Below are positions 3,222 to 30,477 of a stretch of DNA of 34,314 nt, piece after piece (position 1 is the first letter of the stretch; every line of letters starts with the position of its first letter). Under the pieces are notes generated by a model, which saw nothing but the letters and a program-made list of their open reading frames with translations, was not told the DNA's origin and did not search any database. Source of the DNA: Chrysophaeum taylorii (lineage: Eukaryota; Sar; Pelagophyceae; Pelagomonadales; Pelagomonadaceae); contig JAQMWT010000284.1 in the NCBI GenBank assembly GCA_029834535.1, positions 1 through 34,314 on the forward strand. Direction: 5' to 3'. Both the position numbers and the translations under genes were made by a program.

Positions 3222-3245
3222 CGACCCACGGCTCCGCCATACTCT

Positions 3246-4523: not shown

Positions 4524-4930
4524 CTTCGGACCACCCGCATCACGCGCTTTTGCTCACGGAGCATGACACGCTTTGCGACGCTCCCCGCGTCGCCGCCTCT
4601 AACACCAAGACACTCGTCATTTCCACCGACGCTCCGCGCCGCAACGTATCTCACGACCTTCAAATCACCAACATAAGTCGCTCGCGTCCGCACCACGTCG
4701 CGCACGCCTTACGAGGGCGTATTTCAATTGGTGACCTCACATGTATATCGATGCACTTTCCGACGTCCGACATTGAACTTACGAATCACTTTATGGCAAT
4801 CCCCCCAATGCCAATACGTCTGAAGCTGCGCAATCATGTCTCTGGAACCCTACAGCCTCAGAAACTGCCAGACAAGAAAGCACTCAGCTCTCAACAGCTG
4901 ATCAACAGCTCCTTATTGTCGCGCACATAG
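4052..4930 (+). CDS. Unrecognised protein, 292 codons, frame-shifted continuation
   Basis: Composition is the same as in its neighbours (His, Ser, Thr, Pro, Arg). It carries the motif ALRGRISIGD near 4703-4735, similar to ELRGRTFNTGD near 2885 and ELQGRISF near 6326. That argues that this frame and the neighbouring frames descend from one long protein. It is followed after 26 bp by the 1013-codon frame at 4957. No domain is recognised. Confidence 0.35.
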   Translation: MHRLAPPEPLLSALSHHWNVRQTFHASCRLHHKQTPKSRTLPPSKASYRSARNSSFEDACHMPTPPNALHAYGQPWSHGTHCSGPSISAIEDAPSRTDPYIALGSTALSFGDPPFRIPALDPKHSRPDTLHQRISAHAPICPTSQTGQPRNTPLLALTSDHPHHALLLTEHDTLCDAPRVAASNTKTLVISTDAPRRNVSHDLQITNISRSRPHHVAHALRGRISIGDLTCISMHFPTSDIELTNHFMAIPPMPIRLKLRNHVSGTLQPQKLPDKKALSSQQLINSSLLSRT

Positions 4931-4956
4931 CAACGAGCACTATCTCGCAGTCTCTA

Positions 4957-7900
4957 TTGGACGACAAGACGAAAGATAAGACCACAATGGCCAGCTACAC
5001 CAGCCAGCCCACTGATGTAGCAGACGAGACAATGCAAACCAACTGCACAGCACGGTTCCAGACTATACAGACGATGCTCAGGTCCAACGCTCAATTGCTC
5101 GACCACGCACACGTTCTGTCACATGACCTTGCACTGCTACTGGCTCCTGTCTCATTCATAGCTGATGCACCCCATCCGATGGACCAATCCTTCAGATATG
5201 TCCCGCTCGCAGAAGCACCATCGCAGGACACACAGGTACATCATGAAGATATATATACATGTAAGCGCACCACGATCACGCCCACAAGCACATTGCGCCT
5301 ATCTGATCACGACGAGACGAAGCTAATAATTAGCATGTTCCCTTCGCCTCTGGAAGACAAAGGCCGCCTTTCAGCCTCCCAGGCACACGACCCGTCCCTG
5401 TCGCTGCAATCCGTATTAACACAGACGATCTCGCCTCCCTGCACGACTGCAGATCAGGCACAAGCCAATGTCAGCACCCTGCAGAGTTATGCGCACCCGC
5501 TGGAATCTTACGAGTACGGCTACCTCCGTCAGTCAGGTCACTGCACCACCTCGGTCTTCCCTGACATCAGGTCGACGCATCGCTCATTCGCGATCACCTC
5601 AAGTCATCTATTGGACGACTATGATCTCGAGCATGAACTCATCGCAACGCTTGAGTCATACCCAAGAAGGAATCCTACATTGGAGTCACCTCAACCACTC
5701 CCACAGGAACGTTGGCCACCAGACGCCACCCATGTGCTCGTGGTTTCTCCATTGGTTTCCTCCAAAGCTTTTGACTGCAGCAGAGACAAAATGCAACCTT
5801 CCCATGCGACTATACTCGCATTCTCGTTTGGGACACAAGCATTTACCTCATGTCAGATGTTTACGCCCATAGTACCGCGACACACGGCAACCAAGATAGA
5901 AGTGGACTGCGTTCCACCCTCATCTTTGAGCGCTACCCCCGACATACTGCTCCCGGCACTACTAGCCAGTCCCATCACGTCTGATTCAGCTCCCATCGCT
6001 TTGTATGACGTCATATGTCATATTCCGATTAAAGCCCAGACACCGCACAGGCTACTATGCACTCGCGACGGCACGCTCACCGCCCCTCTCGGTTTAGACT
6101 ACGAACAACATTGCGCCATACCCGTGGTACACTCGCAGTCAACTGAGACGCACGCTCGCTTGTCGCACAGTACGATGCCCGAACACCATTTGATTCATGA
6201 TACGCAGAACACTGTCGTCTCAGCCACCGCTGAAGCGCCTCCTCCGACCGCCGCCCGGCTCTGCGCTCGTTTCGCAACCACGGTCTCTCCGTCACACAGG
6301 CAATTCGAAGATTTCACCCAGTTCGAATTACAAGGGCGCATTAGTTTTCCACCGACGACAAGATTCGTTTCGATTCGTATCAGTCATGCCTCCTATGGCC
6401 ACTCTGGCTACATCGGAACTCACTTCAAGGCACGTACCGAAGTCCCTCTTTCTAGGGGCCTCTGTCACACACCAAGACCTGATGAGCATTCGTCGTTCCT
6501 CCCCGCTTCAACGCGACTCTCGACGACCAAATCCCCGACGATTTGTGATGACACTAAGTTCCGTCATCAATACAATTCGGCGCCTCCCACGCTCTTCCGT
6601 CAGTCACTTGCGGGTCACACCTCTCACGTTTCAGGTCGCTCGATTTTATCCTGCACGCTGTCATATGCAAACGAAGTTCTGTCACGCCAAAGCCAAACGT
6701 CGCAGTTATCGCCAGTCTCGCGCAAGAAATGCCCGCCACCAAATGATAGCCGCACTCAAAGTCCTTTGCTTACATCTTTTCACGTCCCTCCCAGCACTAT
6801 GGTTGACGTTGAAGCTCTGCACCACTACGGTTCGGTTACAACACAACTTCACGCGAAATCCTCGTCCAGTTCTGATTATATCTCGCATCTGTCGACATTA
6901 CTATCAGAATCATGCTTCGGACACAGCTCAGACTACACTCGCGTATCACGCTCTTACGACGCACCCGGTTCGCTCCTCTCCGTTCGCACTGCAGGTTCCA
7001 TCTTGCAGAACTCTGAGCCCAACAGCCGCCATTGCGATTCGCACCCAGTCGACACTTTCCGTAGCACCCGCGAGGATAACCCCCATTCTCCACAGGTTGG
7101 ACACGCGCTCTGCCGCACACCGCTAGCCCCACCCAGTTGTGTTACGAATCAAGGGAAGTTAACTGCCATGCCGATCTATTTCTTCATTCCCACACACTCG
7201 CTGCTAGCCACAGTCTCACATGACTCATTATCGGACAGTCCTCGCATTATGGACATGACCTCACATCATGTTCATTCTTCGGACATCCCCCGTCCACAGA
7301 TTAGTCCTCTCTTGAAACATACGCCCCCTACACGTTGTATACTGTACAGCTCTCGCATATCGACAACACCCTTCTGTCGAATGTCTCACCTTTCAGTCAC
7401 TGCACGATTCACCAGGGATGCACCACGCTCCCTCGCGTTTGTACATCAAGGGATGTTGGATTCTGGTGAAAACGACTCCGGACATGAAGTGAATACTGGA
7501 TCAGTCGATTGTCACGGTTCAGGATTACTTTGTCGAATAGAGCACGAAAGATGCGACTTTGAACATACCTTCGAAGTCAACTTTGACCTTACCTTCGAAG
7601 TCAACTCTCCCCCTGGCACGGACAATATCTTCAAGCAGCTCATCGCCTTCAGGCATTTTCATATTTGCACCGACTCTTCAGCACAGGACACACGCCTGTA
7701 TCCACCATCATACGCGATACACTCGCAAACCTCAGTCTCAGCCCAATCATCTTTCGATGATAGCCACTGGCGACTTACACGAGACTACAACTCCACGTCT
7801 ACAGCAAATTTAGAGTTTTCATATTTATGGCCAATCCCAGACAACTTTATCCCGATATCCTCATCGCGCTACGATTACCCGCATATGATCTTAGATGCTC

Positions 7901-8900: not shown

Positions 8901-9097
8901 ACTTTGATCCCCCCCCCTTCCTTCTTTGCCAGCCCCGCCTTATCCTTAGAGTTAACTCTGTAACCAACCCCTCCCCTCTTAGCAGTCGACCTTTAAAAAC
9001 CCCTCCCCTCCCCAAAACTGCCTCGTCCAAAAATTGCGGCGGCAACGCAGTTGTACTATCAAAAAGTGAGCAAGACTTAGTGCAGAGGGCAGACAAT

Positions 9098-9352
9098 CGC
9101 GAATGCGGACAGGCAGCGAACGCGAACTCGCCGCGAACGAGAACTCGCCGCGAACGCGAACTCGCCGCAAACGCGAACCCGAGCGAACGCGAACTCGCCG
9201 CAAACGTGAACCCGTAGCGAACCCGAACTCGCCGCGGACGCGAACCAGTAGCGAACCCGAACTCGCCGCGAACGCGAACCGACTAATCGAACGCGAACCG
9301 GCAGCGAACGCGAACCAGTAGCGAACTCGAACTCCAAGCGAACGCGAACCCT
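9098..9352. repeat. GCGAACGCGAACTCGCC-type minisatellite
   Basis: About 255 bp of tandem units of roughly 15-18 bp built on GCGAACGCGAACTCGCC, with variants GCGAACCCGAACTCGCC and GCGAACGCGAACCAGTA. Arginine/asparagine/glutamate-rich translations of this array are a by-product of the repeat. It lies immediately upstream of the first Gag segment of the Ty3-type element, in what would be its 5' untranslated leader. Confidence 0.85.
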
Positions 9353-9359
9353 GGGTTCG

Positions 9360-9692
9360 TTGCTTCCTTTAGCGCCGGAAGTGCGCCCTGCAGGGAGAGA
9401 AAGAACGACAGGTGGAGCGGACGCCACGACAGCTTCGATGTCTGCAACATCTTTTGGGAGCGGGCCGATGCCACCGCCCGTACGTGAGCGAAGAGACGAA
9501 ACGGGTGCTACCGAATGGCCTCGGCCAGACCCAAGAATCCCCGCGGCGACTCGAGAACCGGAGGCGAGCGCACCTCCGGTGCCTCCCGCAGTCAACGCCG
9601 CGAGAGAGGAAAAGAGAGAGATTGATCCGGAGATGGTTCGGGCGATGGGTGAGCGGATTGAGTTCACACGGGACCAGTTCGCGAACAATTGA
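9360..9692 (+). pseudogene. Ty3-type element: N-terminal Gag segment
   Basis: This open frame of about 110 codons is Ala/Pro/Glu/Arg-rich and ends in a charged helix (EKREIDPEMVRAMGERIEF). The charged helical sequence continues in other frames to about 9880 (a Glu/Arg-rich stretch), where the SINE-like copy R2 begins. It sits directly upstream of the clearly Gag-like sequence at 10300-11080, so I read it as the N-terminal part of the same Gag, broken by frameshifts and the insertion. No start codon can be defended, because the repeat array precedes it directly. Confidence 0.4.
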
Positions 9693-9882
9693 ATCGTATC
9701 CAAAATCAACTTGGAGCTTGACGAGAAGAGAACGAGAAGAGAAAGAGAAGCTCCACCGGGTAATCGAAGAGTCGAGACGGAGCCGAGAAGTACGACCATC
9801 TTCCCCGGACGTTAGTCGCGTAACCCCGGAGAGACGAGGATGTCGGTTCGTCGCTCTCGGACGAGGCACCACCAAGTAATTA

Positions 9883-10136
9883 ACTAACTAACTAACTTCA
9901 GGCCTCTCCCGAGCATGGGAGCCAGGCCGGACCGACAGGAGCCAGTCCGGAATCACGGGCCTGTAGACGAGGAGTGCCGAAAGGTCGGTCGGCGGAGAGT
10001 GACCATCAAACTTGTCGCCATGCGACGAGGAGACCGCAATGTGACTGACAACCAACTCGTCGATAACCTTCCGTCTTCGCCCCCCGGCCATACCCTGTCC
10101 CACTGCGAACGTTCCGGCTGCCAACCGGCCCGCCCG
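9883..10136 (-). mobile_element. SINE-like retroelement, copy R2
   Basis: This copy is nearly identical over about 250 bp to the one at 30215-30460, in the same orientation. Its tail reads TAACTAACTAACTAAC on the plus strand, i.e. (GTTA)n at the minus-strand 3' end. It interrupts the Gag coding region of the Ty3-type element. The 5' boundary on the right is uncertain: similarity with the 30215 copy ends at GGCTGCCAAC, but that copy may be 5'-truncated. An 8-bp match GAGGCACC flanks at about 9864 and 10199, too short to be accepted as a target duplication. A reading frame stays open in three of the four copies, which could be chance. Confidence 0.75.
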
Positions 10137-10148
10137 GGAGGCGAATAG

Positions 10149-10610
10149 GTGCCAACCTACGCCGGGAGGGCGGATGCCCTCGAAAGGCTCAGGATTCATG
10201 AGGCACCGTCCTCCATCGCAACCGCAGTCGGCGATCAGGGTAGGTATCCGAAACCTACAAGAAGGCGCCACTCCGAGCCCGACCTTGTGCGTCCTCCAGT
10301 CGACGATGAATCGCCGACTCATGGAATGCGGAGCTCGCGAGGGATGTTTATACTTCCTTTCCAACCTCTCACAGGCTCCATCTCCAAGCCGAAGGACGAA
10401 GTGCTCACGTGGTTTCGGCAGCTACGTCGTATGATCCGGGGGGAGCCTGATCAGCCTTCGATAGCAATGAAGCTCATCCAGGGTGACTGCCAGAGGGCTC
10501 CAATGACGGCTTACCTTGAATGGGAGAAAGAGCAACCGCTTATGTGGGGACAATATAAGAAAGGACTCGTTACAAAAGAGGACTTGTTCGTCACGACCAG
10601 AAGTGTCTAG
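10149..10610 (+). pseudogene. Ty3-type element: Gag, capsid-like part 1
   Basis: The useful part starts near 10330. It reads like the start of a Ty3/gypsy Gag capsid region, with a Trp-containing helix (VLTWFRQLRRMIRG) typical of the segment that begins retrotransposon Gag domains. It closes at TAG 10608-10610. The homologous sequence continues in another frame from 10628, so a frameshift lies near 10600. The upstream part (10149-10330) may belong to the adjoining SINE-like copy or to linker sequence. Confidence 0.5.
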
Positions 10611-10627
10611 ATGATATTGAGGAAGCG

Positions 10628-11080
10628 TTGCTACTGCAATGTCCACCCAAGTCGACCCCGGAGCAGCTTCAGAAGGATTGGTTCAAAATGAACCAAGCGA
10701 ACCTCTCGCTCCAGAAATATGTCAGTAAATGGATACAGCTGTCTGGGTTGTGGAGGGCTGCAACTGGTCAAAAGATGGACCCGGCAGTTTTTCGTGTGCA
10801 CTTCATATCGGGATTGCAGTCGGCCGAGTTGCGTCACAAGGTTGAGTACGCTCAACTTACGTCTCCGGAGAGGGCAAGCACGTTGGATTAGGTGATTCAG
10901 CTGACTCTGGAAGTGGCGAAAATCCTTGAGACTAGTCCGTCCGCTGATAAGGATGACGAGGGAAAGAAGGCGGACAAGGAAAAGCTCAGAAAGAGCGAGC
11001 GGCGCGTCAAAGGCAAAAAAAATGGCACCACCAGCAGCAGCGAGCTAGATATGTCACTGCATCTGGAGCACAGCCTCTAG
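10628..11080 (+). pseudogene. Ty3-type element: Gag, capsid-like part 2
   Basis: The frame contains the pattern W...FRVHFISGL...LRHKV, matching the retrotransposon Gag signature in which a helix with F..GL is followed by a helix before the nucleocapsid. A TAG at 10889-10891 interrupts it, and the frame continues as VIQLTLEVAK and a Lys/Glu-rich basic linker up to 11080. The linker leads into the zinc knuckle at 11125. Capsid and linker together are of ordinary length for a Ty3/gypsy Gag. The protein would form the retrotransposon particle, but is broken here. Confidence 0.65.
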
Positions 11081-11442: not shown

Positions 11443-12831
11443 GTGCAGACTTCGCTGAGGCTTGAAGATATTGCGAGCGCCGTAAACACGATGTCGTTGA
11501 TACTTCAAGCGCATCAGACGACTAGTGCGAAGAGGGGGCAGCCGCCCCAAAGTGTGAATGCTAGTCAGCGCCATGATGGAGTCGCGGCTCGATGGCTCGA
11601 TGTTATCTGCGAGGATCAGGATGGCACCATGCAGTATAATCAATGTACGGTTCAGAACTCGGAGCTCATTGAGGGGAACGTGTCTGACGAAAACGATGAA
11701 GCTGAAAGTGACGAAGAGACCCTTCCGTGTGAAGAATACCACTTTCATGATGAACCCATGGAGCCACCTTCCTTTCTGGTGATTACTGAAGAGGATTGGG
11801 TAGCGGAAGGTGGTTGTGGTACTGAGATGCGTAAGCTTCGACCGGCCATCCCCTTCCGAGGTGGAGTGAACAGATACGAGTACGAGTACCCTACTTTGTT
11901 TGGTGTGCGGGATAAGTTATTTGCGATCACCGTGGCACCGCCAAAAGAGAATTTTGCCAACAGTGCCGCCGCCTATCGCAGCATATCTACGGACTTTGAA
12001 GATTATTGTCCACAGACTGCAATGAACACTGCTGGCGCTGGTTCGGATCATCGTGAAGATAAGGCAGTGGCGTGTGACGGGACGAAATCTACTTGTTTGA
12101 CGTATATCCCAGTCGCTATCGCCACTCAATATGGTTGGACATACTGTATCATCGCTGCCGGGTTAGATGGAATGGCTGACTCGCCGTATGTCGATCATCG
12201 GCTGTGCACGAGACTTAGCCAGGCTTGCAAGATTATCTACCGTCAACCATCACCATCTACCCGTACTCTTAGTGTGTCTGGTGAATCTGGAGCTGCCATC
12301 AAAGAGTGGATCATCCTTCGCGTTTCTTTGACACCTGGGGCGTCAACACTATTGATGTTCTTTGTGGGACAAACAAATGGACAGGTGCTACTAGGGGCGC
12401 GAGAGTTACGTCTGTTGGGTGCTATCGTCGATCACACCTCGGAAACAGCTATTTTTCGCCGCTCCGAAGTCACCATTGGAGTCATCGAAAGTAGCGTCTC
12501 AGATTTACCCCAGGATTACCAGGGAGTGGTCTTGTACAACGAGGCGTTCGAAGCGACTCCAACAACGGTGCCGATGTTCCCGACGGCTAGGCTGGCCGTG
12601 CAGGACGGAAATGCAAAGCAGTGGAAACCATTTGGTCCTCCTTGGCGATATGATAGCTACTGCAGTCCATCCGATCCAGAGTCAACCACTATCGCCACTA
12701 CCGCGGTGAACCACTCCTGGGAAGCGACAGCCGCGTTTCGAGTGGGACTCCTGGAACTACGGAAGGTCAAACTGGTTATCGTCGAACACCTCGAGAGGAT
12801 AAGACTTTCGTCCCTCATTTTGCGTTTGTGA
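11443..12831 (+). pseudogene. Ty3-type element: protease-like polyprotein segment, 462 codons
   Basis: This long intact frame has an acidic N-terminal half. Around 12100-12460 it shows the outline of a retropepsin: a hydrophobic strand, then GLDGMADSPYVD (12160-12195) in the position of the catalytic loop, and later GQVLLGARELRLLGAIVD (starting near 12380) in the position of the conserved ILG...L helix. The catalytic loop normally reads D-[ST]-G-A; here it is D-G-M-A, so activity is doubtful. Near 12790 the frame shifts into the following segment. Protease is inferred from these two landmarks and its place between nucleocapsid and pol. Confidence 0.55.
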
Positions 12832-13265
12832 CGAGCACCCGCGACCTCTTGCCTAGTATTCCTTACATGCTAGAGCTCGAGTGCGATGTGCCGTTGATGA
12901 CGGGTCAGGCGTACCGACCTTACCGGTCATTGTATCCTGACCTCCGTCTGATACCAGGATCGTTTTCATCTTACTCTCCCCAAGAGCCTAGCGAAGTTCA
13001 TGTGGCTGTGGAGCGCATCGGAGAAGGGCCAATCGGCATTGATCCCGATACGCCCATGATCGAAGGAGAGATTGTGCGGCATGAGGGATGCGTCAACGTA
13101 CAGCTCGAAGCTGCGGAAGAGGATCACGAAGTTTGCTTCGCAACTGCTTCTGTTGACGAAGACGAAACTGAAGTGGAAGAGGAGGTTCTAGCTGAAAGAC
13201 CTCCTCCTGAGCCTCCCCCAGAGGGAGAGACAAAAAAAAACACCCGAAATGGAGGAGACTGCTAG
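12828..13265 (+). pseudogene. Ty3-type element: linker between protease and methyltransferase
   Basis: The frame is open also upstream of 12828, overlapping the end of the protease frame, which places a one- or two-base frameshift near 12790-12800. It encodes an acidic, Glu-rich C-terminus with the Pro run PPPEPPPEG. The stop at 13263-13265 precedes the methyltransferase frame, which has its own TAG at 13267-13269. No enzyme motif is seen; it is probably an interdomain linker. Confidence 0.4.
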
Positions 13266-13269
13266 ATAG

Positions 13270-14525
13270 CTGCCGTCTACGCATGCCTCTTTAGCTTGGA
13301 TACCGATTACGTACACTATCGTCGTCATTGATTTCGCCGGCGCTGGTAGATCGACTTTGGGTATCCGACGATGCAACGAGTTATATGGAACTTCTTTTCG
13401 CATTGTTTTGGCTCTGGACTCTTGTCGACAAGCCCGAGCTGTTTTCCAGCTTAATTTTCCGAGGGTTCCTTATGTCTTACACAATTTAGGGAAGTCTCAC
13501 CGTCGGACTTGCGATTTGGTTTTGTCGTACCTCAACAAGGACTACTGGGGGCATTCATACTTTCATGCGAGTCCTCCCTGTATTTATGGGTCAACCACCA
13601 ATCTCCACTATAGAGTCGCACGCAAGGGCGCTGCCATTACTCCTTGGGTTTTGCGCCATTTTCGTAATGCACCTCATGTGATTGGACGATGGATGTTGGA
13701 GCAGGAACCATCTGTGATACCTTTTGTGAATCACAGTTTTTACGTTCCAGGCGCCGTCGATTTCTACAGTATTAATCCTGAATTGCTATGTTCGCGTACG
13801 CGTCTACTCGCATGCAAGGTTCGCTTATCGCTACCGCTATTGACGTGCGTACCGCCGAATTGCAAGATCTTGTTAGTCCAGCGTTGGGATTTACGAGTGG
13901 ACATCCACTGATTGTGGTCAATAGTTTTTCGTCAACACGCCCGGCCATTGGGCCAGCCTTCACAGTGATGCGCAGCAAGTTGCAGATGGGCCCTCATTTC
14001 TCCAATACCCGACCACTTTCGTTGGAAATGCACCAGGAAATAATGACCGTTCCGTCTACGTGGGAATGGGGTGATACATCGCAAACAGCGGATATGAAGA
14101 GGTTGGGAAGTATGGTGCCGCCAGCGACTACGACGCTGATCGCACTGGCCGTGCATAATTCTTTTGATCCTGCGATTCGAAATCTTGGTAAGTTGCGGAA
14201 CATAACAACTACGACGATCGCCAATCCCGATCACCGTCTATTACGGTTTTTGCCTTTCGCTATCGATTCGCGAATTCCGACGCTCAACCCCGATACTCGT
14301 GTCGTATCATGGTTCAACCAAGACGAGTTTTGCACGCGCAGCGGTTCAGCACCTAGTCCTGCGCCATCTCATCTGCCAGCCACCTCCCCGCCGCCACATT
14401 CGGGTTTGTCGCCAGGGACGGCTCCCTTTTTTGCAGGGGCCACCGTCGCCACTGCTGTGATGCAGAGCAACCAAACTTCCACGACTGCTGAAGAGGAAGG
14501 CGCATCGCAGGTTCGGCCTGCATAG
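13270..14525 (+). pseudogene. Retrotransposon-borne C5-cytosine DNA methyltransferase (frameshifted)
   Basis: DNA C5-cytosine methyltransferases transfer a methyl group from S-adenosylmethionine to cytosine. Landmarks in order: motif I VIDFAGAG (13327-13347, cofactor loop); a motif II-like region with FQLNFP (about 13440); motif IV HASPPC (13564-13581), with the catalytic cysteine codon at 13579; a motif VI position reading WMLEQEP (13690-13710); a motif VIII-like SRTR or STRM near 13790; motif IX TRPLSLE...VPSTW (from 14007); and motif X LGSMVPP (14103-14123). Motifs I-VI are in one frame and IX-X in another, so a frameshift lies near 13780-13800, before the target-recognition region. The roughly 300-residue spacing fits a bare catalytic domain. 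The tail to 14525 is Pro/Ser/Ala-rich. It lies on the coding strand between protease and reverse transcriptase, so it was part of pol. Motif VI normally reads ENV; here it is EQE. Confidence 0.85.
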
Positions 14526-14558
14526 TTCGATAAGTATGAAGTTCCATGGGCGGACGCG

Positions 14559-14568
14559 CCTCACGACG
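14559..14568. repeat. Left target-site duplication of the MULE-like element
   Basis: CCTCACGACG occurs here and again at 18665-18674, immediately outside the inverted terminal repeats. Ten bases is within the 8-11 bp usual for Mutator-like elements. It lies in the Ty3-type element between the methyltransferase and reverse transcriptase regions, showing that the DNA transposon landed there after the retroelement. Confidence 0.75.
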
Positions 14569-14603
14569 GGGAAAATTCCCTTGGGGGATAATGCTTTACG
14601 TAC

Positions 14604-14746
14604 ATGGCGACAAGCTTGATGGTCACTCTCCGCCGACCGACCTTTCGGCGCTCCTCGTCTACAGGCCCGTGATTCCGGACTGGCTCCTGTCGGTCCGGCC
14701 TGGCTCCCATGCTCGGGAGAGGTCTGAAGTTAGTTAGTTAGTTAGT
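14604..14746 (+). mobile_element. SINE-like retroelement, copy R3, 5'-truncated
   Basis: This is the reverse orientation of the copies at 1345, 9883 and 30215. It starts within the element at ATGGCGACAAG and ends in the tail GTTAGTTAGTTAGTTAGT. 5' truncation is usual for LINE-type retrotransposition. It sits in the left inverted repeat of the MULE-like element, right after TTTACGTAC, and its tail abuts Helitron repeat A. Confidence 0.75.
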
Positions 14747-14756
14747 ACAAGTGCAG

Positions 14757-15030
14757 GCCAGTAAGTTCACCTAGTCCCAATCTCTAACCCCAGTAAGTTC
14801 GGCGTAAACCGACTCGTGCTCACACCCACTCACCCCACTCTCCTTTGAGCTCGTCGCTCTCACCCCCGCCAATCCAAGCTGCTGCGATCCGCACGCGCCG
14901 CCAACCCTCAACTTTACTATAAAAACCCCAGTAAGTTCACCTGGTCCCAGTAAGTTCACCTGGTCACTCAGCTCACCTAGTCCCAATCTCCAACCCCAGT
15001 AAGTTCACCTGGTCCCAGTAAGTTCACCTA
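14757..15030. repeat. CCAGTAAGTTCACCTGGTC tandem repeat block, copy A
   Basis: Variants of a 19-bp unit (CCAGTAAGTTCACCTGGTC and CCAGTAAGTTCACCTAGTC) occur singly and in tandem. They alternate with CCAATCTCTAACCC and are interrupted by a unique ~120-bp segment. Equivalent blocks lie at 15744-16080 in copy B and at 26489-26590 plus 26825-26930 in copy C. In helicase orientation the block is downstream of the coding sequence. Confidence 0.8.
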
Positions 15031-15059
15031 CAGTGCGCGTGTAGACGCCGGGAGGGGGC

Positions 15060-15618
15060 TTATCGGTATTGCGCAGCACGTGTGGGGTAGGGTGGAGTCG
15101 TCAACCCAGAAGAGCAAATCCTCGGGGTTGCCGATCGACAGAGAGCCACGTAGAGCTGGACGTGACAGAAGACGGGCTTGGGCAAGAGGACGCGGACCTC
15201 GCGGGGCGTCTGGCCCTGGCTCTTATTGATCGTTTGGCGTAGGCGGGCCTTAAGGGATACAGGTTGGAGGAGCCTCGGTGACACGACACGATCGATCATG
15301 TATCTGGTACCGTTGCAGTGGCCGTGCGACGGGTCGAGGTTGCGAAGACTTTAAGCTCGCGATCAAAGTCAGCATGCCGTTGGTTGTCAGGGAGTCGAAA
15401 ACTCGACTGTAAAGAGCGCGGCGTCGGCTTCCGACCCAACCTAGTCGGCCGAAAAGAACTCCGACGCCTCGTCTCCGGGAAAAAAAGGCCGCGGTCATGC
15501 GCGCGTTGTCAGCATCGACAACATCGTTTCGACGGGGCGTGAGAATGGCGCGCTGAAAGAGCCGCCGCGGGTCGTGGAAACAGTCTGCGAGGTCGCCGTA
15601 GACGGCTTGGAGGATCAC
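15060..15618 (-). pseudogene. Helitron Pif1-like helicase C-terminal fragment, copy A
   Basis: The upstream frame (15618-15250) has FHDPRRLFQRAILTPRRNDV followed by VDADNARM, matching the Helitron helicase stretch ending in ILTPRN..VD..N..M. Then SLTTNGM appears, and in a shifted frame NLDPSHGHCNGTRYMI. The final frame (15299-15060) has INKSQGQTPREV and PKPVFCHVQLYVALCRS, equivalent to helicase motifs V and VI (KSQGQT and QLYVALSR). Helicase motifs I-III and the Rep/HUH nuclease are absent. At least two frameshifts and the loss of the stretch between CNGTR and KSQGQT make it non-functional. Copies B and C carry largely the same lesions. Confidence 0.8.
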
Positions 15619-15733
15619 TGTCTGGCTCTCGCGCCTACCTGATCCTTACTCTCGCGCCTACCTGATCCTTACCCTAAATCGAGGGACAAACAGACAGACA
15701 AACAGACAGAAAAACATCTGTCGATTAGTAGTT

Positions 15734-16791
15734 ACAAGTGCAGGCCAGTAAGTTCGCCAGTAAGTTCACCTGGTCCCAATCTCTAACCCCAGTAAGTTCA
15801 CCTGGTCCCAGTAAGTTCACCTAGTCCCAATCTCTAACCCCAGTAAGTTCGGTGTAAGCCCACTCGTGCTCACATCCACTCACCCCACTCTCCTTCGAGC
15901 TCGTCGCTCTCACCTCCGCCAATCTAAGCTGCTTTGATCCGCACACGCCGCTCGCCTTTGCGTTCACTCTAAAAACCCCAGTAAGTTCACTTGGTCCCAG
16001 TAAGTTCACCTGGTCACTAAGTTCACCTAGTCCCAATCTCAAACCCAGTAAGTTCACCTGGTCCCAGTAAGTTCACCTACCGTGCGCGAGTAGACGCCGG
16101 GAGGGGGCTTATCGGTATTGCGCAGCACGTGTGGGGTAGGGTGGAGTCGTCGACTCAGAAGAGGATATCCTCGGGGTTGCCGATCGACAGAGAGCCACGT
16201 AGAGCTGGACGTGGCAGAAGACGGGCTTGGGCAAGAGGACGCCGACCTCGCGGGGCGTCTGCCTCTGGCTCTTGTTGATCGTTTGGCGTCGGTGGGCTTA
16301 AGGATACAGGTTGGAGGAGCCTCGGTGACACGACACTATCGATGATGTATCTGGTACCGTTGCAGTCGCCGTGCGACGGGTCGAGGTTGCGAAGACTTTA
16401 AGCTCGCGATCAAAGTCAGCATGCCGTTGGTTGTCAGGGAGTTGAAAACTCGACTGTAAAGAGCGAGGCGTCGGCTTCCGACCCAACCTAGTCGGCCGAA
16501 AAGAACTCCGACGCCTCGTCTTCGGGAAAAAAAGGCCGCGGTCATGCGCGCGTTGTCAGCATCGACAACATCGTTTCGACGGGGCGTGAGAATGGCGCGC
16601 TGAAAGAGCCGCCGCGGGTCGTGGAAACAGTCTGCGAGGTCGCCGTAGACGGCTTGGAGGATCACTGTCTGGCTCTCGCGCCTACCTGATCCTTACTCTC
16701 GCGCCTACCTGATCCTTACCCTAAATCGAGGGACAAACAGACAAACAAACAAACAAACAAACAGACAAACATCTGTCGATTAGTAGTTAGG
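15734..16791 (-). mobile_element. Helitron-derived repeat, copy B, head-to-tail with A
   Basis: This is a second copy of the unit at 14747, in the same orientation and without any spacer, so A and B form a tandem dimer. It has a few more CCAGTAAGTTCACC units than A and an expanded CAAA/CAGA tract (16735-16770). It ends CGATTAGTAGTTAGG, followed directly by the resumption of the MULE inverted repeat at 16792. Helitrons replicate by a rolling circle, and head-to-tail multimers are a known product, but a later tandem duplication is equally possible. Confidence 0.7.
16090..16665 (-). pseudogene. Helitron Pif1-like helicase C-terminal fragment, copy B
   Basis: The motif series is as in copy A: FHDPRRLFQRAILTPRRNDV, SLTTNGM, then INKSQ.QTPREV and PVFCHVQLYVALCRS in another frame. 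Here KSQGQT has become KSQRQT, and additional single-base deletions near 16285-16305 shift the frame upstream of it. The shared frameshifts show that A and B were copied from an already broken source. Confidence 0.75.
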
Positions 16792-16893
16792 ACCCAGGGA
16801 TAATAAATTTTGGGTACCTCTATGGCACTATAAGAAGTCTTGAAGTCGTGACGTCACTCCTGATGCACACGACTCAAAAAATAAGCGTTCAGC

Positions 16894-17127
16894 ATGGCGG
16901 AGCGACCGCTGCGACCACTCAACGAGATATTTGTCGCTGCTTTGAAGATGCTCACTGGGAACGAGTGGGACGGAACGTCCTGTGTGCTCGAGATGGCGCG
17001 CGAGGCGTGCGATGCGTTCGGCTGGGATTTCAGCAAGGAGATGAGGAACGGTGGCCTTGCAGGTATTGCGAAGCGGCTGGGGACCTATCATCGGAGTCGA
17101 GGTGCTCCGAAAGGAGCGCGCGCGTGA
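16894..17127 (+). pseudogene. MULE-like element: N-terminal coding segment
   Basis: A frame of 77 codons starts MAERPLRPLNEIF about 55 bp inside the inverted repeat, a plausible first exon or start. It has no recognised domain. Near 17100 the reading passes to another frame, in which a basic and then strongly acidic segment follows. A frameshift or a short intron could explain this; no clear GT-AG pair was identified. Confidence 0.4.
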
Positions 17128-17632
17128 ACCATCCAAGCAAACGATTCCAAACCCCCGGCCGCAGCAGCGCAGCCGCCGCGGGGAGACACTCGATGCAAGT
17201 GACGAGAGCGTGGTCGAGATTCAGCACTCTGCGCGGCGGCTCGGCTTTGGCGAGGAGGAGGAGGAGGAGGAGGAGGAGGACGACGACGACGAGCTTATGG
17301 CCATGGGCACCGAGACCATGGAAGCAGGTTGGGAGGTCGTGGACGACAACGAGGAGGTCGAGGACGATGAGGACGACGAGGACGACGAGATCGAGCCCCT
17401 GTCCGACGCCTCCACCAAGGCCACCCTCAACAAGGTCGGCACGCTCCGCACGCCGCGATGCACAGTATCAAGCGGTAAGTATGAGCTCGCAGTAGTCGCC
17501 GCCGCTGGTGATTACAAGCTCAGCGCTACCAAGAACCACACCGGCAAGTACGAGACAGGCGAGCGACCCGCGCCCATTAAGAACGAATTCAAGGTGCGTT
17601 CTCTGAACTTGAATTCAAGGTGCGTTCTCTGA
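17051..17632 (+). pseudogene. MULE-like element: acidic segment
   Basis: From about 17250 the frame encodes a Glu run and Asp/Glu clusters (GAG and GAC repeats at 17258-17290 and 17340-17395). A Lys/Thr-containing segment that leads into the zinc finger follows. The frame is broken by a 26-bp tandem duplication: GAATTCAAGGTGCGTT is repeated at 17585 and 17611. If one unit is ignored, the frame joins that of the zinc finger. Acidic stretches are common in transposase N-termini but do not identify a function. Confidence 0.45.
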
Positions 17633-17634
17633 AC
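17585..17634 (+). repeat. 26-bp tandem duplication that breaks the reading frame
   Basis: GAATTCAAGGTGCGTTCTCT begins at 17585 and again at 17611, with a shared 24-bp core and period 26. Twenty-six is not a multiple of three, so the duplication shifts the frame between the acidic segment and the zinc-finger segment. The near identity of the two units suggests a relatively recent event. Confidence 0.85.
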
Positions 17635-18285
17635 CATTCGAGGTGGGGAGTCGCGCGGACCACCGCTCTCAGTGCAGATCATAGCAAGGTGACGCTATAC
17701 CTGGCCTGCGAGTTCCGCAAGAACAAGCCGTGCTGCCCGGCCAAGGCAAAGCTCGTTTACCGCATCGCTGCCGGTCAGGTTGAGCTCTACTTCAGCGGCG
17801 AGCACCAGAACCACGCCAGCGACCTCAGCGACACCCGGAAATGTCGAGGTCTCCCGCGACTACTCAAAGGCCCTATCCTAACGCGCTTCGCTGCCGACCC
17901 CAAACCCCGCGCCATACCCATCCGCCAGTGGCTCGTGGACACCGGCCTTATTTACAAGAACCAGTTCAAGTTGCACAAGGGCAACAACAATCGGAGGCAG
18001 CTGATGTGCTTCGTCCGCCGTATGCGCACAAAGCTGCTCAGTAGCCTGTCAGTGGGCGACATGGTCGCGTACACGGTCATGATGGTTGACAGTCGTGACC
18101 TTATCGCCCACGTTCTACACCTGCAGCTGTCCCAAATTCTGGCACTATTTATTACAAGTGCAAGCACGTTCTCGCTCTCGCCATCCGCCTCAAGCACGTT
18201 CAAGTCCCGGAAGACACGATCATCCTGCCCTTCCGCAAGCGCTGTTGTGGTCGCGGTGCCAAAGTGCACGGCGGAGAGGCGTTGA
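17620..18285 (+). pseudogene. MULE-like element: FLYWCH/WRKY-type zinc finger
   Basis: The part after the duplication reads as a DNA-binding zinc finger of the FLYWCH/WRKY-GCM1 type that precedes Mutator-like transposases. It has Cys at 17707, Cys-Cys followed by Pro-Ala-Lys at 17731-17745 (CCPAKAK), and HQNH at 17803-17814 after Gly-Glu. The following 80 residues (CRGLPRLLKGPIL... to MRTKLLSSL) resemble the link to the transposase. Instead of a DDE catalytic domain, the sequence passes within about 50 residues to a SWIM finger in another frame. The catalytic core therefore seems to have been deleted near 18050-18090. Confidence 0.55.
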
Positions 18286-18310
18286 GCGCGAACCTGCTCG
18301 ACATCGTGGC
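18086..18310 (+). pseudogene. MULE-like element: SWIM zinc finger (frameshifted)
   Basis: TFYTCSCPKFWHY (Cys codons at 18122 and 18128) in one frame is followed in the next by YKCKHVLALAIRLKHVQVP (Cys at 18159, His at 18165). Together they make the SWIM pattern C-x-C...C-x-H followed by a hydrophobic helix, usually found near the C-terminus of Mutator-like transposases. A frameshift lies between Tyr (18146) and Tyr (18153). After the finger the frame continues to an Ala run near 18305-18330. Confidence 0.65.
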
Positions 18311-18417
18311 CGCGGCCGCGGCCGCAACAAAGCCCGCTCCCGTTTCCCAACCTCGTCAATTCCCATTATTCCAGGCGCGTCTGCCAAACCACATCACCCC
18401 AACCCACCCCACACCAC

Positions 18418-18482
18418 CTCTCTTCGCCTGCCCCACGACTCGACGATGACCCCGACTAGGTCCCGCGTACTTATCTCCACCC
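18418..18482. repeat. Short segment shared with Helitron repeat C
   Basis: About 65 bp beginning CTCTCTTCGCCTGCCCCACG and including CCCCGACTAGGTCCCGCGTA recurs at about 26606-26670 inside Helitron repeat C with only a few changes. Copies A and B lack it. It lies in the non-coding right part of the MULE-like element. Confidence 0.75.
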
Positions 18483-18664
18483 CACACCACCTCTGTGCGC
18501 GTTCCTCTCATTAGAACGGTTTCGAGCGAGTCAGGGCAGGGTTGCAGCCACGTAACACCGTTAAGCACTTCATCCCAACAGGCGACTTCTTTTTATCCCA
18601 AGGGGTAACCCTAATTCTTTTATCCCTGGGTACGTAAATCATAATCCCAAGAGCGACCCGGCCC

Positions 18665-18674
18665 CCTCACGACG
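18665..18674. repeat. Right target-site duplication of the MULE-like element
   Basis: This is CCTCACGACG, identical to 14559-14568. Directly after it the Ty3-type element resumes with a poorly coding 270 bp before recognisable reverse transcriptase at 18941. Confidence 0.75.
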
Positions 18675-18940
18675 ACATGGTCATCCTCTGCCCGCGACGC
18701 CTCCGCAGTTAACCAGTCAATAGAGCATGAAAGTCACCCCTCCGACCATCGCGCATGTGGAGAAGGTGATGACTGACTGGGTTGCATTACAGATCACCCC
18801 GAGTTGGATGAGGACGAGAAATTGATGATGAAACATCTCATCTCGTGCTCGTGGGCGTTCTTTGACGACGTAATGAAACGCGTTGATTCACCTGAAGAGT
18901 CACGCTGTGGTTTAAAGAGGAGAATACAAACCCCATCAAA

Positions 18941-19890
18941 TTGTCGCCATCTCGGTTGTCAAAGGAAAAGATTGAATGCTTGAGACTTCAAATCGAAGAG
19001 TGGAGTCGAGACGGAGCTATCCGTCCCGCGAACTCTCCTTGGGGTTTTCCCGTCTTGATGCTACCTAAAAAGGGAGCGGAGCCTGGTACTTCCAATGCTT
19101 ACAGAGCAGCGGTCGACCTGCGGAGTCTTAACGAACTGCTCAAGGACGATAGTTGGCCGAGCGTAAGCATGGCAGATACGCTGATGTTTCTCATCGACAA
19201 ACTCCGTCGTTCCAGCCTGGATATCAGATGGTGATATCACAATTTGCGATTATCACTAGAGACACAAGATGTAGTCACTTTCACCAGTCCTTTGGGAGCG
19301 TACAGCTATATGCGCTTACCTTTGGGAGTCAAAACTGCTGGAAGTCTACTTTGCAAGCAGCTGAACACCGATGTGTCGAAGTGGTTGTATCGTGATTTAG
19401 TGGCATACGTTGACGAGATCTTGGCCGGGCTTACGAATACAAGGAGTCATTTGCAATGCATTGTTCAGGTCACTCCTCATCTTGCTTTGAAAGGGTACAT
19501 TACCAAAGTAAAGAAGATCAATTTTATGACGCTTCTCATTGAGTTCTGGGGACACTTGTCTACCCCGAACAGGCGTCTTCCTTCGCTTAGATCTCTAGAG
19601 GCCATTCGGCACATGCCAATCCCTGGTACCTTGCCAGATGCTGACCCCAAGAAGCAAGTGCGCCATTTCTTAGGAACGGGGAGTTTCTTTCGTCGATATG
19701 TGCGCAATTTCGCGGAAGTCACTGAGCCACTAAGACAGTTGACGTTGCCGGACGTAAAGTTCGAATGGACGAAAGAGTGTCAAGAAGCATGCTATGCAAT
19801 CATCGAAGCCATCGTAAGTTCCAAGGGAGTCTACCATCCTGACTACTCACCACCGTTCTACATCCGGGCTGACGCTTCTGCGCATGATTG
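18941..19890 (+). pseudogene. Ty3-type element: reverse transcriptase
   Basis: Ty3/gypsy reverse transcriptase landmarks are clear: EWSRDGAIRPANSPWGFPVLML, then the basic KK, then VDLRSLN and SSLDIR (first catalytic Asp). After a TGA at 19232-19234 the same frame continues with YHNLRL, FTSPLGAYSYMRLPLGVK and AYVDEILAG (19403-19429). The catalytic box should read Y-[VI]-D-D; here it is YVDE, so the second metal-binding Asp is replaced by Glu. The TGA sits where a Gly codon is usual (R-x-GYH), so a single GGA to TGA change could explain it. The thumb and connection (FLGTGSFFRRYVRNFA) follow. The domain is recognisable but not functional. Confidence 0.85.
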
Positions 19891-20262
19891 GGCGCTTACT
19901 TGTTTCAGAAAGTGCCAGACGTTGGAGATGATGGAAAAGAACGAGTGGAAGAGAGAATCATTGAGTACTGGAGTCGGACAGTGCCCAAATCGACGAGGAA
20001 GTACGATCCTCGTCGCTTGGAACTCCTAGCAGTGCTCTCCGCTCTTGAGGCCTTTCGCTTTTACATTGAAGGACATAAGACGAAATTGGAGACGGATCAC
20101 CGTAATCTGACGTTTCTGCGAAACACCAATCACTCATCTGGGCAGTTGGCGCGATGGGCTATGCGACTCGCCGCTTTCGATAGAGAGCTCGGATGTAAAC
20201 CTGGAACTCGCCCGGCATGCGTATTCCTGACTTGTTGTCGCGCAATCCGATCGATAAGTTGA
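19840..20262 (+). pseudogene. Ty3-type element: RNase H
   Basis: The start YIRADASAHDWAL is still in the reverse transcriptase frame. The rest (from about 19890) is in the next frame: EYWSRTVPKSTRKYDPRRLE, LLAVLSALEAFRFYIEG and TDHRNLTFL. These match the Ty3/gypsy RNase H pattern with catalytic D...E...D (ADAS, RLELLA, TDH). A frameshift near 19890 and another near 20215 break it. RNase H removes the RNA template during reverse transcription. Confidence 0.8.
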
Positions 20263-20448
20263 TCGAGCAGGACGAAGACGGAGAGCCGATCAATGAAGCC
20301 TATTTGATCTTCCAGGAGATTCCATCTGACGTAGAAGGTGCAGCTTGTTCACCTTCTCACCAGAGACGATACCTTTGCCGGTGGAGAATACGACTACTGA
20401 AGCCCTTGCAGCGGTTAGTTGGTTAGCTAGTTAGTAGAGCGTCAGAAT
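20217..20448 (+). pseudogene. Ty3-type element: RNase H to integrase linker
   Basis: MRIPDLLSRNPID corresponds to the usual end of RNase H (A-D-x-LSR). The frame then becomes acidic and ends at 20426. At 20411-20437 there is a GTTAGTTGGTTAGCTAGTTA stretch resembling the SINE tail, but no SINE body is next to it. The integrase frame follows at 20449. Confidence 0.6.
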
Positions 20449-21712
20449 ATGCAACCGCCTCAATTTGCGTACGAGTCCGAACCGGTGGATCCAATCGAAC
20501 GTCTTCCCTTTGCCGTTCAAGCTGAGGACGAGATCACTCTCGAAGAAATAGCTAAGGAGCAGGCCGAGGATGAAACTTGCAAGCGAATTCGTCAAAGTCT
20601 CGACTCAGGACATAAGGAACAGAACGAGCAGTCACCGGTGTCGTACGAAGTCGAAAATGGCGTTTTGTACAAGGTTGATGATTCGGAATCCCGACGTCTT
20701 ATTGTGGTACTTCAGTCAATGCGAGAGCGCGTGATTGCTATGCACCACCGAGGTTTGTTCGGAGGTCATGTAGAACGCAATTCGACATCGAGGCAGATCC
20801 TAGAGCGGAATTGGATGCCGAACGTCCCGTCTTCGGTCAATGAGTCCAAAACGCTTGTGTTATCTGTCAAAGGTCCGATCCACCGTCTCGAAGCGCCATG
20901 GTTGATCTGTCAACCAAATAGCATATGAGATTGCGGTGTATTGGGTATGGATCTTATTGGGCCCTTGCAAGGTGCCGATTTATATACGTATATCCTCGTG
21001 ATGCACGATACGGCCTCGCACTTTCTCAAATTGGCATTGATCAATACCAAGCATATTATGCTATTTTGAATGCATTCGTCGATAAGATCCTGCTCGAAGG
21101 ATGTCTCCCAAGGTGCATAGTCACGGACAATGGAAATGAGTTCGCAAATAAGTTGTTCCGAACATTCGTTCGTCATTTCAATGTTCGTTACCGGACTACA
21201 ATACCATATCACCCTCAGAGCCATCATACCGAGCGTGTCAATCGATTCACTAAAGCGTTTCTACGTGCCGCGATCGAGGAGCAGCGGCAACCTGATTGGT
21301 CTGTTTTACTTACGTACGTTAATCTCGCCTTTCATGATGCGTACTGGCAAGCAGCCTCTGCTGCCACCGGACTACAATATCATGAGCGACCATCGCGGCC
21401 TGCCTCAGTCGCGTCAGCAGATCTCGATAGACTTCAAGAACAAGTTTGAACTCTACAGTCAACTCGTTGCACGAGCCCACCAAAAATCTCAGGAAAGCCA
21501 GAAGATCAACTACGATGCGAACCAGATCGACATCCAGTTCTCTCCTGGCGATTATGTTTAGCGTTTTGCGCCTAAGACGCGTCACAAGTTGCGACCGATC
21601 TGGCGCGGTCCATACATGTCACCGACAAGACTCCCTCTGTTGTTTACGAACTTAAGGACGTGAACCACGACGATGCCGAACCCGTTGTGGTGTCTGTGCA
21701 GCAGATTATTTG
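20449..21712 (+). pseudogene. Ty3-type element: integrase with GPY/F-like end (multiple frameshifts)
   Basis: The N-terminal zinc finger is present as MHHRGLFGGH (about 20740) and, in another frame, CVICQ (20856-20870), giving the HHCC set. The core follows in pieces: GMDLIGPL (first Asp, about 20944), IVTDNGNEF (second Asp, about 21118) and YHPQSHHTERVNRF (catalytic Glu, about 21210). After another frameshift come an Arg/Gln-rich helix (ARAHQKSQESQ), FSPGDYV, and PIWRGPY (about 21597-21617), the GPY/F landmark of chromovirus-type integrase ends. At least five frame changes and one stop (21559-21561) are needed to read it. All three catalytic residues are still encoded. Confidence 0.8.
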
Positions 21713-22204
21713 AAAGTGCCGATGATTGACACTTCTTCAGCTCCTCTGCACTTACCTTCGGATCGCGACCGCTTCAAGCATGGCAAATTCGCAATCTTTA
21801 GGGTCAAAGAACGATCCAACGTTTGGAAGATGGGCATCTACGTTGCCGAAGTCTACAAAGATTACGATCACGAAAATGATACAGCTGCGCTTCATTATTT
21901 TGCCGACTTAGGTCCACGCGACGATCCTCGCGTTTTCGATCCCACAAAGCCTCTAGGCGATCGACTCTTAAGACCAGAATACAAAGACCTTGACGGTCTT
22001 AGTTTTACTCGTCTTTCGAGCGAACATGGATGGTTGTGAACCCTGCGTATCTGATTTCTGACCCGAAGAAATCGATGTTCTTGTCAGTAACTTCAACCTC
22101 CACAGCAACAAAGTTCCTGCTGATGTCGCTGAACGAGCTTACCGTGCCATTCGTGAGCGCGACCTTCGTCACCCTCGAAGTCTAGGACGACTTCAACTTG
22201 AGTA
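21710..22204 (+). pseudogene. Ty3-type element: C-terminal unassigned domain
   Basis: The frame 21710-22039 encodes GKFAIFRVKERSNVWKMGIY followed by an acidic hinge and HYFADLGP. The pattern of short beta strands with a buried Trp suggests a small barrel that could replace the chromodomain found at this place in chromoviruses. I cannot assign it to a family. After a frameshift near 22040 a helix (VPADVAERAYRAIRERDL) ends at TAG 22202-22204. Purine-rich GAGTAGGGGG overlaps the stop and could be the polypurine tract, but no LTR pair was found. Confidence 0.45.
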
Positions 22205-23420
22205 GGGGGCTCCTGTGGCGGGAACGCCCTTCCCTCCACTTACCCGCCCGTTGCCTTGAACTTGGTGATGTCACCCTGACATCTCCACCAGTTTTTCCTC
22301 GGATACGTATGTACCGAGAACCTGTGTTGCCCTTGCCAATCTTGGCATATCTTGCTTGCTTTTTCTTGGAATCGATTGATTCTTGCCTAATCCCTTATAA
22401 TTCTTGATTTGTCCAACCTCAGGGCGATGCGTGCGTAAGCACCGGGTTGGGCGTGTGGTGGAACCACCCGCAGTTCGGACATTTTGAAAGGTCGCATTGT
22501 GACCGCCGGTCCGGCTACGAGGGGCGGGTGAAGAAGTTTCGGCCACACCGCCCCGCTCATCGCAAGCCACGACCTCAATAAGGTGACGACGTTTCACAAC
22601 TTGTAGGACGGCCTCGAGCCTCCTCTTCCGCTCGCCGTCACCACCTACGAGCGAGATGTACTTAGCAGATTTGAACATATTACTTTTAAGTTCGCCGTCC
22701 TTTGTAGTGAACGGATGCGATAAAGTTGCCCAACAAGGTCTTAGCAAATATTGCAACTTCGATCCTGCAGAGAACGGCCCTTATGTGGTGCTAAGTTGGG
22801 ACTTTCCGAGGACTTGTGGGCGAGTGTCAAAGAAGGAGGGGGGAGGCTAGAGAATCCGGGTAAGGCCTGTGGAGTAAGAGTTACTGCGGGGGGGAGGGTC
22901 CGGCGGCGAAAGGCGCAACGGCCACGGTACGTTCCGTTACGCTGCGCTCGTGGGCACCAGGGTAGTGGTAGCGGCAACGCGTAGCGGAGCGTCGTAACTC
23001 GTAACAGTTTTGGTAGCGAGGTTTCGTATCGTCCCAACCCTGATCTTACCCTAGTTCGGGCTTAGTGCGGCCCACATTGGCCGTGTGAAACTTGTAGACT
23101 CCAAACGCATTTCACCAACATACCCAACCGCGCGCTGCCGGCCGCACCAGAGCAGAACAGAGCCGCTATGCAAGGTCGCGGAACTGTCATTACACATCCC
23201 TGGAGAGGGCACTGAGAGATTAGGACCTAGAGCGGGATATTGGAGCATCCCAGAATTGCAGGATTGCAGACGGCTGTCGAGATAACGCGTCGAGAACTGC
23301 GTCGAAAATGGCCTCGGGTGCGCATCGAGTCCAACTTCAAAGAGTGTGGCCTTTAGAGAGGCAACAGAAGGGAAGGAACAGGGGTCGCCTGGGATATATG
23401 GATTAGAATCAGAGACATGT
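22205..23420. other. Gene-poor stretch, possible retroelement 3' end
   Basis: There is no confident gene. A minus-strand frame (22756-22271, 161 codons) has a coherent-looking N-terminal half with KYISLVGGDGERKRRLEAV and VLQVVKRRHLIEVV, but the rest is low-complexity and no family is recognised. Around 22935-23005 the sequence can form an imperfect hairpin (GTTACGCTGCGCTC against GAGCGTCGTAAC). If the Ty3-type element has a 3' LTR it should begin just after 22204, but I could not match it to any sequence upstream of Gag. Confidence 0.3.
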
Positions 23421-30197: not shown

Positions 30198-30477
30198 CAA
30201 CATCTTAACAACTAACTAACTAACTAACTAACTTCAGACCTCTCCCGAGCATGGGAGCCAGGCCGGACCGACAGGAGCCAGTCCGGAATCACGGGCCTGT
30301 AGACGAGGAGCGCCGAAAGGTCGGTCGGCGGAGAGTGACCATCAAGCTTGTCGCAATGCGACGAGGAGACCGCGATGTGACTGACAACCAACTCGCCGAT
30401 AACCTTCCGTATTCGCCCCCCGGCCATACCCCGTCCCACTGCGAACGTTCCGGCTGCCAACAACATCTTAACAACTA
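30198..30477 (-). mobile_element. SINE-like retroelement, copy R4, with 17-bp target duplication
   Basis: The target duplication CAACATCTTAACAACTA is at 30198-30214 and 30461-30477. The element itself is 30215-30460 (246 bp), minus orientation, with tail TAACTAACTAACTAAC at the left. It matches copy R2 over its whole length with few differences. It split the third ORF of the plus-strand copia copy; the uninterrupted equivalent in the minus copy confirms that the insertion came later. Confidence 0.9.

Follow-up and report, generated by a model that had tools for sequence, protein, structure and literature searches.

An algal Ty3/Gypsy-type LTR retrotransposon family with a divergent C5-cytosine methyltransferase domain between its protease region and its reverse transcriptase

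Retrotransposons that carry a C5-cytosine DNA methyltransferase (MTase) have already been published from dinoflagellates and from one charophyte, groups that the initial annotation of the locus reported here had named. SymbioLINE, SymbioDIRS and KnitGypsy-Dnmt3 were described by de Mendoza et al. 2018 (PMC5890265; for this and the other papers cited, statements refer to the part of the text available to us). Like the element reported here, KnitGypsy-Dnmt3 (Klebsormidium nitens) has the LTR Gypsy domain set, and its C5 MTase, too, is encoded within the Pol frame and under purifying selection (PMC5890265). However, its enzyme is a DNMT3 member and its repeats are, according to the paper's legend, arranged as in DIRS, whereas the MTase of the algal element appears very divergent, without evident DNMT3 affinity, and its repeats, where found, are simple direct repeats at the termini. 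The KnitGypsy DNMT showed no activity in yeast, a result that the authors call inconclusive, and the plant-type methylase set of K. nitens (PMC5890265) is unlike that of the present host, whose genes, as far as seen, are DNMT5 and DNMT2-like. SymbioLINE-Dnmt and SymbioDIRS-Dnmt3 (Symbiodinium) resemble the present case in that many DNMT copies (hundreds in Symbiodinium) are under purifying selection, and SymbioDIRS DNMTs methylate CG in yeast (PMC5890265). SymbioLINE is a LINE, though, and SymbioDIRS are tyrosine-recombinase elements, whereas the algal element has LTRs and an rve-type integrase; its Pol frame contains an integrase zinc-binding domain and an rve core instead of a tyrosine recombinase. 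Furthermore, SymbioLINEs were reported to be CpG-poor (PMC5890265), which the algal elements are not clearly. DIRS elements with a Dam-like methylase are another case of a retrotransposon-borne methylase, but this is an N6-adenine enzyme, structurally unrelated and residing in an element class other than the algal Ty3 (PMC5890265). An opinion paper (PMC6338049) lists Dam- or Dcm-type methylases, the enzyme types being pooled, in Ty3/Gypsy and DIRS elements of several groups, including stramenopiles, red algae, green algae and charophytes, and the available part of a 2025 survey (PMC12344493) adds no further retrotransposon DNMT lineage. As retrotransposon-borne MTases, one of them in a Gypsy element, have been published, the kind is known; of the initial annotation's "independent or unreported" occurrence, what stands is that no description of this MTase lineage was found in the literature searched. 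What appears to be new is the combination of a Ty3 element that has plain LTRs with a divergent MTase that lies between protease and reverse transcriptase (RT) and has no evident DNMT3 affinity. DNA methylation usually works against retrotransposons, and a further lineage conserving an MTase of its own strengthens the case that the enzyme helps some elements.

The window, that is, the whole stretch of 34,314 nucleotides analysed, is contig C284 of a genome of 70.8 Mb in 697 contigs. The layout of the element within it was obtained by aligning intact relatives (C225, C311 and C421) and by tblastn with the frames of C311; all parts lie on the plus strand except for the nested insertion, to which no strand was assigned. 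A decayed gag region (9438-11041) was recovered in four pieces with 40-53% identity to the gag-position frame of C311; a piece of it matched Retrotrans_gag of Pfam below the cut-off (E 0.0024), and a dispersed repeat at about 9881-10178 breaks the region. The protease region and the linker preceding the MTase (11734-13151; 61-65% identity to an intact copy) yielded no Pfam match, and its protease-like active site, DGMAD, was recognized by eye only. The N-terminal part of the C5 MTase with motifs I to VIII (13282-13866) is in frame 1 and 82% identical to the MTase of the intact copy L002, and the C-terminal part with motifs IX and X (13800-14168) is in frame 3 and 71% identical. Taken alone, both parts stayed below the cut-off of Pfam DNA_methylase (E 0.13-0.25 and 0.04, respectively), and the N-terminal half had no match among PDB sequences at E ≤ 10. 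Motifs I (DFAGAG), IV (SPPC) and X (LGSMVPP) are present in the order reported initially, but because they fall in two frames, the window copy of the MTase is frameshifted. The initially proposed extent, 13270-14525, does enclose the MTase, but its last ~350 bases are connector; the MTase end and the connector towards the RT occupy 14139-14567 (67% identity to an intact copy; one stop).

Downstream, the MTase and the RT half of the element are kept apart by a nested insertion of ~4.1 kb (14568-18660), which is absent from intact copies; accordingly, the alignment of C225, C311 and C421 to the window skips from 14568 to 18665. Within the insertion, a 1.05-kb repeat is present twice, and the sequence of 9881-10022 recurs in inverted orientation. 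The RT (18661-19915), interrupted by stops and frameshifts, matched RVT_1 below the cut-off (E 7e-6) and is 54-81% identical to an intact copy, and the RNase H (19888-20259) matched RT_RNaseH above it (75.8 bits, E 3.4e-21). The decayed integrase with its C-terminal extension (20260-22175) was recognized by rve (E 9.5e-6, below the cut-off) and by tblastn pieces, one of which contains ten stops. A polypurine-tract-like stretch (22203-22213) lies directly 5′ of the 3′ LTR, and the same string precedes the 3′ LTR of C225, C311, C421, C345 and C26. The 3′ LTR itself (22214-22547; 334 bp, TG...CA) is 73% identical to the 5′ LTR of C225; a 5′ LTR of the window element was not found within the window. 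The window element is, thus, an old, dead and interrupted Ty3/Gypsy copy, the parts of which stand in the order given by the initial annotation: according to Pfam and tblastn, a gag/protease region and RT/RNase H/integrase flank the MTase with the same polarity.

Intact copies with the same domain order, several of them with LTRs, were found elsewhere in the genome. C225 (2129 aa) and C311 (2115 aa) each have a single stop-free frame that spans protease region, MTase and RT. Two subfamilies, A and B, both with the MTase before the RT, were distinguished, each with more than 100 matches: at least 139 for A, including split pieces and one B row, and at least 136 for B; a first search, overlapping with that for subfamily A, had returned at least 150. 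In subfamily B, the MTase precedes the RT at C235, C147 and C311; at C235, the region upstream of the RT, comprising a protease-like string and the MTase, is in a single frame, and the genome search lists single frames of >3000 aa holding the B domain on C5. The frame of L012 has RVT_1, RT_RNaseH and Integrase_H2C2, in this order, above the Pfam cut-off, and rve just below (E 5.3e-7). The gag-position frame of C311 had no Pfam match to gag, and no protease was matched by Pfam either, DGMAD again being recognized by eye.

Clear LTR pairs were present at 5 of the 10 loci examined (C225, C421, C345, C505 and C26), about 290-344 bp long, 91-96% identical and 8.7-9.8 kb apart. Partial pairs were seen at C311 and C235, and ambiguous repeat pairs, up to 18 kb apart, at C147; at C499 and C607, where the examined stretches both end at the contig end, no pair was found. 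The LTR edges read TGTGG...CACA or TACA, a purine-rich stretch precedes, and a string starting with TGG, a candidate primer binding site, follows the 5′ LTR. The element loci examined were mostly retrieved through their MTase. The claim that a C5-type MTase is located between the protease region and the RT of a Ty3-type element, hence, applies to many genomic copies, several of them with LTRs, and we regard both the identity of the MTase and its place in the architecture of a Ty3/Gypsy-type LTR retrotransposon family of this alga as virtually certain.

The assignment to the DNA_methylase family, for which the two window halves fell short of the cut-off, was borne out by intact copies: against PF00145 (cut-off 22), L002 (subfamily A) scored 38.5 bits (E 1.2e-9) and L019 (subfamily B) 27.1 bits (E 3.6e-6). 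All of 26 aligned domains, hand-picked from 275 rows as stop-free and spanning the diversity, matched DNA_methylase at E ≤ 0.01 (this threshold, not the Pfam cut-off), and none matched another family. Conservation was assessed on these 26 chosen domains plus P0001, a database relative (see below). Among these 27 sequences, the catalytic cysteine of motif IV (C103) is present in 25, the catalytic glutamate of motif VI (E143) in 26, the arginines of motif VIII in 26 (R175) and 27 (R177), and the SAM-binding glycines of motif I (G23 and G26) in 27 each. The textbook pattern of C5 MTases is ENV in motif VI, GN in motif X and a glutamine in motif VIII; the element MTase reads EQE or EQV in motif VI and mostly GS or AS in motif X, and the glutamine of motif VIII is missing. 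The solved C5 MTase 8yf3 carries GRMVPP at motif X; therefore, a change at that position is tolerated.

Weak PDB sequence matches were mostly to C5 MTases (3 of 5 for L019, 1 of 1 for L002, 2 of 2 for profile A1 and 5 of 5 for profile A5). The tRNA methylase DNMT2 was among the nearest solved relatives, and DNMT3 chains were not among the PDB matches of these four queries. The NCBIfam family dcm, the cut-off of which is 100.65 bits, matched with 22.5 and 18.8 bits. The nearest matches in PDB (E 0.03-1) and NCBIfam are DNMT2 and dcm-type C5 MTases of bacteria; these matches are weak, cover mainly the N-terminal motifs and make membership in neither group evident. Comparison of profiles aligned the element MTase with the DNMT2-like gene of the host through motifs I-VIII (hhalign probability 39%, E 3e-4) and gave no match to the host DNMT5. 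Two predicted structures were of low confidence (pLDDT 40 and 43); for the second model, the first Foldseek match was a DNMT3 complex (E 4.4e-4, TMq 0.34), with KsgA and other methyltransferases scoring close to it. Such predicted-structure matches support a methyltransferase but fall short of proof. As judged from its sequence, the element MTase appears to be very divergent, with no DNMT3 affinity evident. A chance match of motifs is ruled out by the Pfam scores, the 26 of 26 domain matches and the dN/dS ratios.

These ratios were calculated from Nei-Gojobori distances. Between groups within a subfamily, dN/dS of the MTase was 0.05-0.10, for example 0.06 between the A groups (L002 vs L008; dS 1.57, dN 0.09) and 0.05 between the B groups (L019 vs L049; dS 1.95, dN 0.11), ratios that are rough because the high dS is near saturation; between A and B, dS was saturated and gave no ratio. 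For comparable pairs, the RT ratios were mostly 0.03-0.06, rising to as much as 0.12 where one partner was L010 or the window copy, which are both frame-broken. Among near-identical copy pairs, the ratios were higher (0.11-0.71 for the MTase and 0.39-0.62 for the RT), as expected because fixed copies drift. The MTase domain is, thus, under purifying selection, and its low, RT-like dN/dS between groups argues that the domain is used; we read this selection as probably acting during replication of the element. The MTases of A and B are 42% identical and the RTs 63%, which suggests that the MTase evolves faster than the RT. As the place of the domain is common to A and B, it has, most simply, been there since before the two subfamilies split.

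Beyond this genome, a first protein search with the A domain returned no match at E ≤ 1, and profile searches of 5.8 billion proteins, in one of which the best 8000 candidates were scored, retrieved two, P0001 (E 4.7e-34, and 6.8e-83 once P0001 itself was in the profile) and P0002 (E 3.8e-20). Both stem from short contigs, the sources of which are labelled jgi and ena. P0001 retains GxGG, SPxC, LEQVPG and RxR, but had no match in Pfam, PF00145 included, at E ≤ 1; overall, the MTases of A, B and P0001 are 32-42% identical. In P0001 and P0002, the stretch before the MTase is, by eye, presumably of the type that lies between protease and RT in Gypsy elements, so that both are taken as candidates only. 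Viral contigs scanned for relatives of A/B, and of the repeat family D described below, contained none.

The initial annotation had suspected an animal-like or holozoan host on account of a FABP-like gene. The genome, however, contains 84 matches to chlorophyll-binding/light-harvesting proteins, all above the cut-off (some being pieces of one gene), and a DNMT5, and the host is therefore a photosynthetic alga. The light-harvesting matches rule out an animal or holozoan, and for the FABP reading Pfam offers no support, giving DUF3869 at E 0.023 only. DNMT5 is encoded at 1006-3537 of L030 (C621) and matches PDB 7r76 with E 3e-143, a chain labelled Rad8 that we take to be fungal Dnmt5. DNMT5 is a maintenance enzyme in fungi. 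A second gene, at 1498-2577 of L029 (C634), is called DNMT2-like here on the strength of the DNMT2 signature, ENVxGFExS. In the PF00145 search of the genome, in which 123 of 474 candidates were scored and introns split genes, no clear DNMT1 or DNMT3 was seen among the 20 loci read. Such a host is a test case for the source of new methylation in DNMT5 lineages.

In our reading, the polyprotein of an algal Ty3/Gypsy-type element has captured a C5-cytosine MTase between protease and RT. The MTase, either cut out of Pol or staying in it, would be packaged with the RT in the virus-like particle and methylate cytosines of the fresh double-stranded cDNA, and the host DNMT5 could then maintain the mark. 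We consider it somewhat probable that the MTase methylates new cDNA, so that copies may arrive marked, and an even bet that cDNA is its main substrate. A possible benefit would be that the cDNA is hidden from defence, guarded from nucleases or deaminases, or settles quietly in chromatin. A footprint of CpG self-methylation, sought in element composition and in C>T singletons, was weak or absent. CG observed/expected was 1.02-1.26 for the A and B elements, compared with 1.26-1.46 for three loci of host genes and 1.11-1.28 for three further flanks; a copia piece of the window had 0.78. TG was somewhat higher in the elements than in host genes (1.04-1.21 vs 0.78-0.90), which would be compatible with a mild CpG effect, but not a strong one. 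In raw counts, C>T singletons at CpG sites and at other C, respectively, amounted to 16/113 and 25/296 in group A2, 11/112 and 34/305 in B1, and 5/139 and 19/289 in B2; they lean to CpG in A2 only and not in B1, B2 or family D. Alternatives to CpG marking are marking in another sequence context, transient marking and an RNA substrate. Because so many copies occur naturally in a single small genome of an alga, self-methylation is testable there by methylation sequencing.

An enzyme acting on RNA, be it the genomic RNA of the element or the tRNA that primes it, in analogy to the tRNA methylase DNMT2, would agree with DNA that bears no strong CpG footprint and with the DNMT2 chains among the best PDB sequence matches. 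However, the DNMT2 signature is absent from the element MTase and the host already has a DNMT2-like gene, which leaves this an unlikely, albeit serious, explanation. We are more doubtful still about a role in trans, in which the MTase would target the host genome or rival DNA (other elements or DNA viruses) and serve defence or provide de novo methylation. The many copies would be in line with such a role, as would a host in which DNMT5 and a DNMT2-like gene were seen but neither DNMT1 nor DNMT3 was clearly recognized (20 loci read, 123 of 474 candidates scored), and an antiviral role of such domains has been proposed (PMC6338049); selection on the element itself is, nevertheless, the simpler account of the purifying selection. 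That the fold is catalytically dead and retained in Pol for binding or for structural reasons might be thought because motifs VI, VIII and X deviate from the textbook pattern, but appears quite improbable, as catalytic cysteine, glutamate and arginine and the SAM-binding glycines are conserved across A, B and P0001 despite 32-42% identity. Finally, an unrelated insertion or an assembly artefact, which the interrupted window parts in different frames could suggest, is practically excluded, and for intact copies refuted, because the order recurs in A copies, in open frames as long as 2129 aa, and the domain precedes the RT in B copies at C235, C147 and C311; two other database proteins also carry it.

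Returning to the methylation of new cDNA as the preferred account, a wider version of it is tentative and, in our estimation, unlikely to hold in full. Elements of two kinds with MTases of their own may supply de novo methylation, with each new copy arriving self-marked and the host DNMT5 keeping the marks, and the Ty3 MTase may form an orphan lineage, acquired independently of the published DNMT3 captures and old enough for subfamilies of 42% identity and for an occurrence in other, unsampled organisms.

The same genome contains a repeat family, D, with a different C5 MTase (469-3444 of L040 on C582, 487-3423 of L045 on C96 and 463-2655 of L046 on C681). Pfam DNA_methylase scored 33-37 bits in L040, L045 and L048, and each of the 18 further loci that the Pfam search delimited (L031-L048) matches the family; about 56 genome rows have a D-like Pfam span, 18 of which were read and about 38 more assigned by span alone. 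The MTase combines PCQ and ENV with a degenerate motif I and lies behind a protease-like string, DGGAS, in frames of up to 1952 aa. An RT was not located, a 1.2-kb downstream piece (L069) having no RT recognizable by eye; family D may, nonetheless, be a retrotransposon. In the window, a Pro/Thr/Ser-rich coding stretch (3054-6408) is distantly similar to family D (~24%, E 3e-7 to 1e-10) and is perhaps an old relative, with low complexity possibly inflating the similarity.

Other repeats of the window were recorded as well. A Ty1/copia RT (27539-29011, plus strand; RVT_2, E 2.7e-21) is CG-poor (0.78), unlike the Ty3 elements, and the translation of a minus-strand frame at 33049-34314, itself without a Pfam match, nearly repeats much of it. 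Just upstream of the gag pieces, a tandem array with 17-bp spacing (GCGAACGCGAACTCGCC-like) occupies 9081-9367. The stretches 9881-10022 and 14603-14744 are 98% identical inverted copies of a short dispersed repeat, and a similar translated stretch lies near 30224. Inside the nested insertion, two tandem copies of the 1.05-kb repeat (14758-16601) are 90-98% identical and contain CAGTAAGTTCACCTGGTCC motifs.
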